64,000 nucleotides of DNA from Melissococcus plutonius ATCC 35311. Lineage in GTDB: Bacteria > Bacillota > Bacilli > Lactobacillales > Enterococcaceae. The stretch lies in the NCBI RefSeq assembly GCF_000270185.1, contig NC_015516.1, positions 1,163,001 through 1,227,000 of the forward strand. Direction: 5' to 3'. Position 1 is the stretch's first letter. The number at the start of each line of letters is the position of its first letter. Shown piece after piece: positions 33,903 to 45,858 of the stretch. The notes under the pieces were generated by a model. That model made no database searches. It worked only from the letters and a program-made list of their open reading frames with translations, and was not told the origin of the DNA. A program made the position numbers and the translations under genes.

Positions 33903-34445
33903 TTATAGACGAATTTTGCTATGATGTGATAATAAATTTATAGCACCTATAACCACACTGACTGTAAATAATCGATCTAAGTAATCAGTACCTACTTGTA
34001 CAATAAAAACACTTAGTGTTTGATTTAGTCCTAACCCATACAACAATTGAACAATCATACTGGAACCTGAAGAGGTAATCCCACCAAATAACCAAACAGT
34101 AATGAAAGAAGATAACAATGTCCCTGGAAAGGTAATTAAGAATGCTTTAAGAGGCAATGCCCAAGTGATTGGTTTACGATATAACAATACTCCTGCCATA
34201 AAACCAATACATAGTTGAACTGGCAAAAAATAAAGCGAATATAAATCAACAGTTATTCCCATTAAAAAGGCACTACTGAACCCAACAATCATACCAGCAA
34301 CCGGTCCAAAAATTGTTGCAGTTAAAATAGTGCCAATCGTATCTAGATAAATTGGTAATCGTAAAAAAAGTGCTAAATTACTAAGTGTAATGTTTAATGC
34401 AATTGATAATGCCATAATTGTTATTTTTAAATTATTCGTTTTCAT
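33903..34445 (-). CDS. ECF transporter S component, probably queuosine/queuine related
   Basis: A 180-residue integral membrane protein with about six segments. It is an S (substrate-capture) subunit of an energy-coupling-factor transporter. LPIYLDTIGTILTATIFGPV and DLYSLYFLPVQLCIGFMAGV are typical of the S-protein group found beside queuosine genes. It begins 8 nt after the nucleoside hydrolase gene and lies in the same transcript, behind a preQ1-I riboswitch. It would share the general ECF ATPase and T module encoded elsewhere. Substrate is inferred from the riboswitch: queuine, queuosine or a precursor. Confidence 0.8.
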   Translation of the reverse strand: MKTNNLKITIMALSIALNITLSNLALFLRLPIYLDTIGTILTATIFGPVAGMIVGFSSAFLMGITVDLYSLYFLPVQLCIGFMAGVLLYRKPITWALPLKAFLITFPGTLLSSFITVWLFGGITSSGSSMIVQLLYGLGLNQTLSVFIVQVGTDYLDRLFTVSVVIGAINLLSHHSKIRL

Positions 34446-34453
34446 TTATGAAT

Positions 34454-35428
34454 TCATCCTAACCCCAATTGATTTAGATCAGTTGTGATAACTGTCTCTG
34501 GTGCATCTAAAAGGACGGTCAAAAACTGAATAAAGAATTCTTTTGTATTCACATCGTTTAAAATTTTACTATTTGCTTTTTCATGCCAAAAATCATAACG
34601 ATCAACCAATGTTTGTCCGACACTGATTCCCTGTGTTTCAACTGCAACATAGCTCTTGAAACCAGTACAAATTTCAGGCGAAATATAATAAGCAACAGCA
34701 AGTGGATCATTGATGACACAACCAAGCAAATGTTCATATTCCCAATGAAAATTAAAATAAAAACGAGTGATTTTCTTTAAATATTCATAGGTTGATGGAT
34801 TGATCCAACGACAGTATTCTAAAATAGTTGGTGAAAAAACAATTTTTCGAGTAACATCTAAACCAACCATTTCAATCATTCCACCTAATGAAGTAAAAAC
34901 CTGGGCAGCAGCATCAGGGTCACACCAATAATTAAACTCGGCAACTGGTGAACAATTCCCATGACTTTTATAGGTGCCTCCCATGGAAACAAAACGCGCT
35001 ATATTGTTACCTAGCTCTGTATTTTTAGTTAGCGCTAAAGCAATATTGGTTAAAGGACCTAAAGCTAAAATACCAACCGGTTGTTTTTTACTAAAAAAAT
35101 CGGCTAAAAAATCGCTGGCTTTTTTTTCTTGTGGCTGTGTATTTGATTGCCTTGAAAGATGACTCTCTCCTAACCCATCAATGCCATGTGTATCTTGAGC
35201 AGATACAAAAGGACGATGCAATGGTTTTTCTGCTCCAAGATATACTGGAATGTCTAAACGATGGCAACGTTCTAAAACTTTAAATGTATTTTCTGCACCA
35301 ATTTCCACTAGGACATTTCCTGCAACAACACAAATAGCAAGAACGTTTAATTTACCAGATTTAATAGCATATTCTAAGGCTAGAGCATCATCAATTCCTG
35401 GATCGCAATCGATAATTACTTGTTGCAT
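34454..35428 (-). CDS. Nucleoside hydrolase (IUNH family), candidate queuosine hydrolase
   Basis: A 324-residue inosine-uridine-type nucleoside hydrolase. The calcium-binding N-terminus IIDCDPGIDDALALEYAI (residues 5-22) and the later ILALGPLTNIALAL, VSMGGTY and NDPLAVAYY are all present. ATG at 35426-35428 follows a strong AAAGGAGG. Family members cleave the N-glycosidic bond of ribonucleosides; one branch (QueK) releases queuine from queuosine. The preQ1-I riboswitch directly upstream and the S component downstream make that role likely here. The alternative is ordinary pyrimidine or purine salvage. Confidence 0.85.
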   Translation of the reverse strand: MQQVIIDCDPGIDDALALEYAIKSGKLNVLAICVVAGNVLVEIGAENTFKVLERCHRLDIPVYLGAEKPLHRPFVSAQDTHGIDGLGESHLSRQSNTQPQEKKASDFLADFFSKKQPVGILALGPLTNIALALTKNTELGNNIARFVSMGGTYKSHGNCSPVAEFNYWCDPDAAAQVFTSLGGMIEMVGLDVTRKIVFSPTILEYCRWINPSTYEYLKKITRFYFNFHWEYEHLLGCVINDPLAVAYYISPEICTGFKSYVAVETQGISVGQTLVDRYDFWHEKANSKILNDVNTKEFFIQFLTVLLDAPETVITTDLNQLGLG

Positions 35429-35451
35429 TTTTTCCTACCTCCTTTACTGAG

Positions 35452-35489
35452 ATTCTTAGTTTTTTATTCTGGGAAGTTTCCGAACCAGT
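35452..35489 (-). promoter_or_regulatory. preQ1-I riboswitch
   Basis: On the minus strand, stem CTGG/CCAG (35488-35485 with 35472-35469) closes a 12-nt loop TTCGGAAACTTC. It is followed by the A-rich tail AATAAAAAACTAAG, nearly identical to the Bacillus queC aptamer tail. The loop contains G-AAA-C, matching the G-3nt-C spacing that positions the ligand-pairing cytosine in known preQ1-I aptamers. Short P2 pairing of GG with the CT of the tail is possible. A small hairpin (CGAGTAA/TTACTCG) lies just upstream. The ribosome site GGAGG is 9-15 nt downstream and could pair with CTTCC of the aptamer, suggesting translational control. Confidence 0.82.
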
Positions 35490-35773
35490 CCGAGTAAAAT
35501 TACTCGATTTTAAATGCACCTTATTATGATAATACAAAATAGATAGAAGGGAAAGGAAAATTATCATCTTGCCTAATTCATTTTGCATATACTTCATTAT
35601 TAAAATCATTTATTCTCTTTAATTAAACTAATTTTATGCTGAGTACACATGTTATTTTATCAACAATCACAGTCAAGATACTTGTTATTTATTTCTTATA
35701 ATAGTTTTAAATAAACTATTATTAATGATCAATTTCTATGCGCAGCTTCATTGTTTTATCTAGTTATTATTCA

Positions 35774-36448: not shown

Positions 36449-37926
36449 CTACTTCTTTTTAGTCAGTAATTCTTTGACAGCGGCTTGATAAGCTCTATCA
36501 TTATTTAAAATCTTCTCTCGTTGATGTAATAAGTACATCTATTATTGGACAACTTTAGTTTTTCTTCAATTACTGTAGCTGTCTTACTGTCTATTTCGCC
36601 ATTAGCCGGTAACTGGGCCTTTGTTTGAATATCCTCAACAGCCTGTTGTGTTTCATTTGAAAAGACTGAACTCTCTTTATTTACATCATAATTTAAGCTC
36701 TGTAAAATGGCATTAGCATTTTTGCACTCATTTGAATTCTCACCTAATTTTAAAGGTTTGTCTACAGAGATTGGTAATAAATAAGCATATTCTGGATAAT
36801 CTGCTTCAATCGTTGGTTTCAATCCTTTTTTATGAATCCAAGTTCCATTCGGTGTTAGCCATTTTAAAACAGTTAATTTTATCTATGTATCGTCTTTTAA
36901 ATCTTTAACGGTTTGAACTGTACCTTTACCATAAGTTTTTGTTCCTATAATTGGAACTCCCGCCGATTCATGTAAGGCGGCTGCAAAAATTTCAGAGGCA
37001 CTTGCACTACCACCATCTACTAAGAGTACAACTGGTTCTTTAACTTTGAACCCATCTTTATCTAATTTATTAGAAGCAACATCTTCGCCCATTTTTTTAT
37101 GTCTATCTTCAAATTTAACAATAGTTTTTCCATCTTTTAAAAATAAATTCGCCATGTACTCTGCCTGATCTAACAAGCCACCAGGATTTTGACGTAAATC
37201 TAACACAAAAGAAGTAGCTCCTTGTTTTCTTAACGACTTAATGGTGGTTTTTAACTCATGATAGGTATTTTCACCAAATGTTGTAATATTAATGGCACCT
37301 ATAGAGGCATCTTTCTTGTCTATTTCGCCACTCACCGTTTCCATTGGTAAAGTATCCCGTGAAATGGCAACATCAAATATCTTGTCTGCTCTTGAAACAG
37401 TTAATTTTACTTTTGTTCCCTTTTTACCACGAATTTCAGAAACAACTTCATCAAGTTGTTTATCTTTAGTTTCTTTTTCATTAACTTTTAAAATAACATC
37501 ATTTACCTTAAGACCTGCCTTGGCAGCTGGCGATTCTTTAATCGGTGCCTGGACAATTGTTGGTAAGCCATCTTTAGTTGACAAGGTAGCTCCTGTCCCC
37601 TCAAAGCTTCCAGAAATTGAATCGTTCAATTTTGTTGAATTTTCCTTATCTAAATAGGTAGAGTAAGGATCATCAAGAGAATCCATCATTCCTTTTAATG
37701 CACCATCGACTAATTTTTTCTTGTCCACTTTACCAACATAATTATTATTAATTTCTTCATAAAGATTTTGTACTTTTGTTAGGTTTTCATCTGCTATGCC
37801 ATTTTGCTTTAAAGTTAAGTTAAGTCGGTGATCAAAATAAATATAACAACCACCGCCAACTAAAAAAGCAGCACAAAATAAAGAAATAATATATTGATAA
37901 TAGGGAACCATCCGTTTCTTCTTCAT
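36449..37926 (-). pseudogene. Carboxyl-terminal processing protease (S41), broken
   Basis: A secreted or membrane-anchored S41 peptidase with an N-terminal membrane segment (residues ~10-30), a PDZ domain (GTGATLSTKDGLPTIVQAPI, then AAKAGLKVNDVILKVNEKET) and the catalytic region with Ser in GGSASASEIFAAAL and Lys in GTKTYGKGTVQT. An in-frame TAG (36883-36885) stops it after KDLKDDT; the frame then continues IKLTVLKWLTPNGTWIHKKG into a peptidoglycan-binding-like tail. A second lesion, a one-base loss near 36530-36550, shifts the last ~30 codons (HQREKILNNDRAYQAAVKEL, ending 36449). Both catalytic residues precede the amber codon, but the end of the protease fold is cut off. Confidence 0.85.
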
Positions 37927-43571: not shown

Positions 43572-45858
43572 CTACTCCTCCTCATTCCATAACCATTGTT
43601 GCAACGTATTTAAACTACTATACAACAAAAATTCTTCTGTTTTAATTTTTTTAAGACGTTCTTGATAACTTGTACTTTCTGTTAATGATTGTTTTTTAGG
43701 ATTTTCTATTACTTTTAAATGATCATCTTTTATTGTAACAAATTCTAATTCGAAAAACACCTGAATCATAAAAGTTAACAATTTTTCTTTAATCTTTAAA
43801 TATTTACTAATTTCAGGTAACTGAGTTAAATCAACTTGCTTATGTTGTTGAATAAATTTATACAGTTTACCGAATTGATCTCTAGTTCCCATACCATTTA
43901 AGTAGGCTTCTTCTTCAGAATTACATATCAAATAAACTCTTTTTACATTTAATTGTTGAACGATCCTTTTTATATCTTCTAATCTGTCAGGACAATCAAT
44001 GAAAATCAGTTGCTCAACTTTTGATTTGATTGGCAATTCTGGATAAACAAATATGTTAGTCTCTATATCTTGAATAAATTGCTGACTTTCTTTTTTAAAA
44101 CAAATATAGGCAGTATGATCAACGGGCCATTGATACTGGAACCCCTTTTTTCAACGTAAATCAAACAATTGTGCATTTTTAACCATAAAATCTGTTACCA
44201 ATACTTGTGGTTTACAATTTCCACGCCATTCATTAATACCTAACTTACCTACAATCGTTACTTGTGTATTTGAAAATTCATCTTTATCTTTTCCCATTTG
44301 AAAGGCAATTGCATCTAATACTAACTGTTTATCTTTTAATTGAAATTTTAAATAATTATTATTTACACCAATTTGTTGAACATTTTGTATCATTGAATCT
44401 TGGAAAAGAAAAAGTGGGGCAGCGTTTTTTGTGCCAAAAGGTGCCAATAGTTGTAATCGCTTGATCAATGCTAACGATACCTCTGCTACAGGAATAGGCA
44501 TGTCAATCAATATTTCTTGTTTTTCATCTAAATTGATCGTTTGTTGTTTCATACAATAGAATAAATATCCTTTGAGAAGAATTATATTTTCTACAGACAA
44601 GGTAAGTCCAGCTGCCATTGCATGTCCACAAAAGAAGTTAACCATGCTCTTTTTTCATTAAGTACTTCATATAAATTAATCGCAGGAATGCTTCGAGCTG
44701 ATCCCTTGGCTAGCTTTTTAGCTGCGTCAATGGTAAGAACAATGGTAGGTTTTCCAGTTTCTTGTACAATTTTACCAGCAACAATCCCTAAAATTCCTTC
44801 AGGCCACTCTTCTTTAGCAATAATATGAATGGGATCATTGGGATTTATTTGTTGTAATGCTTCTTCCGTAACTGTAGAAACTAATTTTTTGCGTTGATTA
44901 TTTTTTCATCAATCATTGTTGCTAATTGTTCAGCTTCTTGATCATCAAAGGTAGCTAATAATTGAACGCCAGGTCCAGCTTCTCCTAGGCGCCCAATGGC
45001 GTTAAGCCTTGGTGCTAATGAAAAACCAATATCTTCTTCGCTTATTGTCTCTTGTTTAAGACCACTTTTTTCAATTAAACATTTTAATCCAATTCGCTCA
45101 CTTTTCTGTAAAATGACTAATCCAATCTTAACAAGCACTCTATTTTCATCTGTTAATGAAACCAGGTCTGCAATTGTTCCTAATGCAACTAAATCAAGAA
45201 ATTCAACAGGCGGCTCCTCTAAAAGTGCACTAGCTACCTTAAATGCTACACCAACACCTGCTAAATCATCAAAAGGATATTTTCCATCCGGATGCCTAGG
45301 ATGAACAATAGCATATGCTTGTGGCAAAGAAACAGGTAATTCATGATGATCAGTGATAATAACATCTACTCCTTTTTCTTGAGCTAATTGAATAGCTTCA
45401 TGACCAGCTACCCCATTATCAATAGTTATAATCAACTGAATCCCTTGTTCAATTTTTTCCTTAAAAATTTCTTTATTGGGACCATAACCATGAATAAATC
45501 GATTCGGTAAAAAAAAGTCGACGTCTCCACCGATTGACTCAATGGTCTCTTTCATTAATACAGTACTTGTGATTCCATCGGTATCATAATCACCATAAAT
45601 TAAAATACGTTCACCATTTTCCGCTGCTGTCTGGATACGTTGAATTGCTTTTTTCATATCATTCATTAACAATGGGTCATAGATATCTTCTAACGTAGGA
45701 GATAAAAATTTTTTTAATGCTGTTTCGTTGCGTAAATTTCGTTGCCACAGCAATTGTCCAATAAAAGGATCAATCTTTTGTTGATTTAATAGTTGGATAA
45801 ACGACTGTGGCAGCACTTCTTGCTCTTTCAGTTTCCATTTATACTTAGCTTTTCTCAC
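43572..45858 (-). pseudogene. recJ: Single-stranded-DNA exonuclease RecJ, broken in three places
   Basis: The pieces 44881-45858, then the unopened stretch to 44646, 44151-44645 and 43572-44036 make one RecJ of about 762 residues. The N-terminal DHH domain is intact (LIYGDYDTDGITSTVLM, TDHHELP). Lesion 1: loss of one A in the run at IDEKNNQRK (near 44900), giving a stop at 44881. Lesion 2: one base lost in the conserved SFGGHAMAAG motif (near 44630-44640). Lesion 3: an in-frame TGA (44151-44153) replacing a probable Trp after LFDLR, followed in frame by KKGFQYQWPVDHTAYICF. The RecJ-specific DHHA1 and C-terminal domains are therefore not made. RecJ acts in recombination and mismatch repair. 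Start is GTG (45856-45858) after GGAGGG. Confidence 0.9.

Follow-up and report, generated by a model that had tools for sequence, protein, structure and literature searches.

A preQ1-I riboswitch before a QueK-QrtT gene pair in Melissococcus plutonius: a probable operon for salvage of 7-deazaguanine nucleosides

Melissococcus plutonius is a bacterium of honeybee larvae and a bee pathogen. In the stretch of its genome analysed here (64,000 nucleotides, hereafter the window), a preQ1-I riboswitch precedes genes for a nucleoside hydrolase and an ECF transporter S component. The locus raises the question of which nucleoside such a pair would import and cleave, what would become of the freed base, and how so small an aptamer might govern a ribosome site that lies outside it. 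The most probable answer, which we hold with good though not full confidence, is a QueK-QrtT operon for 7-deazaguanine nucleoside salvage under repression by a type I preQ1-I riboswitch. Its core features are as follows.

33903-34445, minus strand: qrtT, ECF transporter S component, 180 aa; NF045596 at 82 bits, below cut-off; 44-46% identity to the C. difficile S component
34454-35428, minus strand: queK, nucleoside hydrolase, 324 aa; PF01156 at 304 bits; 50% identity to C. difficile QueK
35450-35494, minus strand: preQ1-I aptamer, type I by sequence rules (PMC11625349); RF00522 at 48 bits
35488-35485/35472-35469 and 35476-35474/35457-35455, minus strand: aptamer stems P1 and P2, respectively

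The aptamer and the conserved gene pair

A cmscan of the window against all Rfam families places a match to RF00522 (Rfam PreQ1) at 35494-35450 on the minus strand, scoring 48 bits against a gathering cut-off of 39, with an E-value of 1.1e-6 for the whole window by 4227 families and of 8.7e-9 genome-wide. It is the single match to the PreQ1 model in the whole M. plutonius genome. The initial annotation had read a preQ1-I aptamer here from the letters, and its P1 (CTGG/CCAG), 12-nt loop and tail are all as it described; the Rfam covariance search that it proposed returns this above-gathering match. The IUNH gene that it placed behind the aptamer and the ECF S gene 8 nt further downstream are likewise confirmed as open reading frames, the aptamer tail running into the SD and then the IUNH start at 35428. 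Type I aptamers carry UU after the 5' strand of P1, UC before its 3' strand and a C in the A-rich tail (PMC11625349), all of which occur in M. plutonius (CTGG-TT, TC-CCAG and AAAAAAC-TAAG). The type I switch of Carnobacterium antarcticum binds two stacked preQ1 (PMC8752633, PMC11625349). The M. plutonius leader shares its type I features and translational setting, but its SD sits beyond the aptamer in a separate hairpin, and a further hairpin, P0, and a start-codon clamp are added.

Genomes of C. difficile, picked by a species-specific DNA word, contain one hydrolase that matches the M. plutonius query (50% identity, E about 1e-102), the sole match in those genomes. The gene order there is preQ1-I aptamer (43 bits), IUNH, S component and a small radical SAM-like protein, an operon reported as queK-qrtT-queL with a QueK active on queuosine (PMC11477304). 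The M. plutonius operon is orthologous to it, with the same first two genes, gene order and riboswitch class; it differs in that queL was found neither in the operon nor in the genome. The S protein of M. plutonius, 44-46% identical to C. difficile QrtT, scores below cut-off with both PF12822 (25 bits) and NF045596 (82 bits), as does C. difficile QrtT itself (27 and 86.5 bits). A maximum-likelihood tree built from 58 hydrolases places C. difficile QueK and the M. plutonius hydrolase together in a 28-row clade (support 99/99) that excludes RihA, RihB and RihC of E. coli. The early suggestion of a QueK-branch enzyme, as against RihA/B, is thus borne out by the tree.

At E<=1e-60, the hydrolase is found in 27 of 295 genomes of Lactobacillales, spread over 15 genera, and the QueK clade takes 24 of the 26 such genomes other than M. 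plutonius. A related S gene lies directly 3' of the hydrolase at every one of these loci (24/24). The aptamer scores above gathering at 19 of the 24 and below threshold at four more, among which L014 is weak (24 bits); L034 has no match in a scan made at the gathering level.

QueK resembles RihA, RihB and RihC (group I nucleoside hydrolases) in its IUNH fold, Ca-site Asp residues and loop His, but is only 31-37% identical to them and differs at the base-binding end of the site. The M. plutonius protein keeps the Ca-site residues D9, D13, D14 and D241 together with H81, and bears the signature H228, W229, E232 and N240. Position 240, in the numbering of the M. plutonius protein, is Asn (NDP) in 28/28 QueK-clade proteins and His (HDP) in 25/25 HDP-type hydrolases. 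Asn240 aligns with His239 of RihB, a position that serves as proton donor to the leaving base (PMC2898832, PMC8910321). Position 232 is Glu throughout the clade (28/28), the RihB equivalent being Tyr231, a base contact, and position 228 is His (28/28), the equivalent being Gln227. The accessible part of a nucleoside hydrolase review distinguishes His, Trp and Cys groups at the proton-donor site, with some enzymes lacking the His, and describes no Asn group. Among NCBIfam models, C. difficile QueK has only below-cut-off matches, to RihA, RihC and others; the Asn240/Glu232 signature supplies a simple rule separating QueK-like hydrolases from RihA/B/C, which these models currently do not. Loss of the proton donor would be understandable for 7-deazaguanines, because they have no N7 to protonate. 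The NDP motif also occurs in five proteins outside the QueK clade, two of them in LacI/sugar kinase/ECF/phosphorylase operons, and Asn240 is therefore no proof of a 7-deaza substrate.

At the loci L067 and L069, a LacI regulator, a PfkB sugar kinase, an NDP-type hydrolase, ECF S/T/A/A components and a nucleoside phosphorylase share one operon, whose transporter is probably a QrtT-related ECF system that takes up ordinary nucleosides. Such occurrences of NDP-type relatives outside a Q context show that the broader hydrolase/S pairing extends beyond queuosine. L036 and L037 are NDP-type hydrolases of Lactobacillales with neither an adjacent QrtT nor a preQ1-I match.

Distant relatives of this kind, in ribose or nucleoside operons with sugar kinase, phosphorylase and full ECF transporter, lend some colour to the idea that the M. 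plutonius pair scavenges ordinary nucleosides for carbon or purine and has a preQ1 switch in front of it by chance. Those relatives, however, fall outside the 28-row QueK clade, across which the preQ1 switch is kept. Moreover, M. plutonius possesses a separate hydrolase that adjoins a nucleoside transporter and groups with RihA in the tree. We consider ordinary scavenging very unlikely.

The queuosine pathway and the choice of substrate

The M. plutonius genome encodes TGT, QueA and QueH, the finishing set that leads from preQ1 to Q-tRNA; tgt, whose absence would have told against the initial annotation, is present. TGT occurs in 30/30 genomes examined and QueA in 42/42. Residues Cys158 and Val233 of TGT have been linked to the use of preQ1 versus queuine, in a study that also reports in vitro inhibition of a bacterial TGT by queuine (PMC3660597). 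The M. plutonius enzyme keeps the equivalents of both residues and is thus of the bacterial, preQ1 type, as is TGT in 28 of the 30 genomes, M. plutonius included. The TGT encoded at L115 and L116, from the genomes of L033 and L034, has Ala in place of Cys158, lacks the cysteines of the zinc site and contains a long insert, features that may indicate a changed substrate; both genomes also carry the QueK-QrtT pair.

A PF04055 search of the M. plutonius genome gives six radical SAM matches, named by eye as HemW, PflA, another glycyl-radical activase, a YtqA-like protein, RlmN and NrdG. No QueE-type protein is among them, in agreement with the earlier expectation as far as queE is concerned, and de novo synthesis of queuosine precursors is therefore unlikely. 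The operon marks bacteria that apparently rely on other organisms for their Q precursors, among them this bee pathogen, whose identity as a pathogen of honeybee larvae the initial annotation had guessed correctly. The same search was dropped as a test for QueL; QueL itself has no Pfam match, and the result therefore informs on QueE only.

In C. difficile, QueL converts queuine to preQ1. A search with C. difficile QueL at E<=0.001 found no QueL in M. plutonius or in 26 other operon-bearing genomes, while the control, C. difficile, was recovered at E 2e-154 as the sole match among 28 genomes (27 hydrolase-bearing). The gap is common to the whole Lactobacillales set and is therefore no quirk of one reduced genome. 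Since QueL was not found and TGT is of the preQ1 type, freed queuine has no known route into tRNA. The proposal of uptake and cleavage of queuosine or queuine consequently lacks support in its original form, since no known reaction would use the queuine set free. In these bacteria the pathway, as far as it is known, has a gap: either an undiscovered enzyme carries out the queuine-to-preQ1 step, or the nucleoside that QueK cleaves is of the preQ1 type.

Under the favoured explanation, QrtT, together with a shared ECF module, would import a 7-deazaguanine nucleoside (either queuosine or one of preQ1 type released as tRNA is broken down), and QueK would strip the ribose from it. The freed base would be brought to preQ1, from which TGT, QueA and QueH would produce queuosine in tRNA. 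A version of this explanation settles the substrate: in QueL-less Lactobacillales QueK would act on a preQ1-type nucleoside (for example preQ1 riboside, from undermodified tRNA) and free preQ1 directly, queuosine not being the physiological substrate. Such a substrate would suit the 27 operon-bearing genomes in which QueL was not found, the presence of QueA in all genomes examined and of QueH in M. plutonius, the prevalence of preQ1-type TGT (28/30) and the ligand class sensed, which is preQ1. Against this, the same-clade QueK of C. difficile is reported to act on queuosine (PMC11477304), free preQ1 nucleoside was not found documented as a nutrient in the literature examined, and a non-homologous queuine lyase would serve as an alternative. 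We regard this version as a possibility to be taken seriously, albeit a tentative one.

The TGT of Chlamydia trachomatis reportedly inserts queuine directly into tRNA. A like activity in M. plutonius would make free queuine usable in the absence of QueL, but its TGT keeps the Cys158/Val233 equivalents, and QueA and QueH, which direct insertion would make unnecessary, are both retained; this route is highly improbable.

Leader architecture and the switch

Around the aptamer, the leader contains the following additional elements.

35526-35531, minus strand: probable -10 box, TATCAT, by eye at the same relative position as TATACT/TATGAT/TATAAT in relatives' leaders
35512-35518, minus strand: 5' strand of the clamp, UGCAUUU, at the predicted mRNA 5' end; pairs with 35430-35424
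35491-35506, minus strand: P0 hairpin, CGAGTA-ATTT-TACTCG, separated by two nt from P1 on its 5' side; compared across 16 distinct leaders
35437-35453, minus strand: P3 hairpin, ATCTC/GAGGT, holding the SD (35445-35438), conserved in short leaders
35424-35430, minus strand: 3' strand of the clamp, AAAUGCA, including the start codon (35428-35426)

The accompanying -35 box is weak, and transcription is predicted to start about 6 nt downstream of the -10 box, where the clamp strand begins. A terminator-like hairpin, noted by eye, lies upstream and separates the operon from a signal peptidase gene, so that a promoter of its own is probable for the operon.

The whole-leader MAFFT alignment shifted P0 by one column in some rows; P0 and P3 were counted on condensed sequences cut around hand-placed arms, with L014, which has an aptamer deletion, excluded. 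P0 is 100% paired in the 16 distinct leaders, and 5/5 counted pairs change on both sides, the latter being the better evidence because hand-placed arms favour pairing. In P3, a single pair varies on both strands (CG/UG/UA). The covariation score of the whole leader structure is 0.365, compared with 0.150 in shuffles (16 leaders).

The clamp is present in both the MFE and the centroid folds. In other genera its two strands vary in step, as in L030 (GUAUUCAU:AUGAAUAC), L025 (CAUUCAU:AUGAAUG) and L028 (GCAUUUAU:AUGAAUGC). For six divergent leaders, comparison with dinucleotide shuffles gives a Fisher p of 1e-5, or of 1.4e-4 when the start codon is kept unchanged, and comparison with 104 other gene starts gives 2.4e-6; the permutation rank is 12/720. 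These values are optimistic because windows and representatives were chosen after the pattern had been seen. The value for the M. plutonius leader alone is modest (0.03-0.20), and the clamp is absent from the L023 leader. The C. difficile leader differs from that of M. plutonius in having no recognisable clamp (start pairing of -1.8 kcal/mol) and extends 139 nt from P1 to the ATG.

In the preQ1 switches known to us, expression is lowered when ligand is bound. The initial annotation had envisaged pairing of the SD with CTTCC of the aptamer as the switch. This pairing was rejected: it would use bases that take part in P1/P2 once the aptamer is bound, which restricts it to the ligand-free state, the opposite of what an OFF switch requires. 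It also lacks covariation, both CTTCC and the SD core being unvarying across the 16 leaders compared, and the conserved partner of the SD lies instead in the separate downstream hairpin P3, to which the start-codon clamp is added. ViennaRNA folds are much the same with and without a forced aptamer; over 18 short leaders, the mean unpaired fraction of the SD is 0.48 free and 0.50 'bound', no clear change and one that speaks neither for nor against switching.

Plentiful preQ1 would, by analogy, turn the operon down through the type I riboswitch. The compact pseudoknot of the bound state may shorten one arm of a four-way junction made up of the clamp, P0, the aptamer and P3, and the tightened junction would then keep SD and AUG paired and hidden from the ribosome. 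Such a start-codon clamp, if true, would give a very small aptamer a novel means of governing translation with the SD outside it. A term search of a 2024 review and searches of the literature available returned no mention of the clamp or of P0, and P0, P3 and the clamp together are apparently an undescribed expression platform. The QueK-QrtT operon is in this sense a variant of the known C. difficile system, with the downstream enzyme missing and a leader architecture that is apparently undescribed. It is about an even call that many Lactobacillales possess both a second, QueL-independent queuosine salvage, by way of a queuine-to-preQ1 enzyme yet to be recognised or of QueK acting on preQ1-type nucleosides, and a new clamp/four-way-junction platform.

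Two other genes in the window are split. RecJ falls in two ORFs on the minus strand, 44151-44645 and 44881-45858, carrying the DHH part and the RecJ OB part, which suggests that recJ is broken or that sequencing introduced a frameshift. A CtpA/CtpB-like protease of family S41 is likewise separated from its C-terminal peptidoglycan-binding part, on minus-strand ORFs at 36505-36822 and 36883-37926, probably a disrupted gene.
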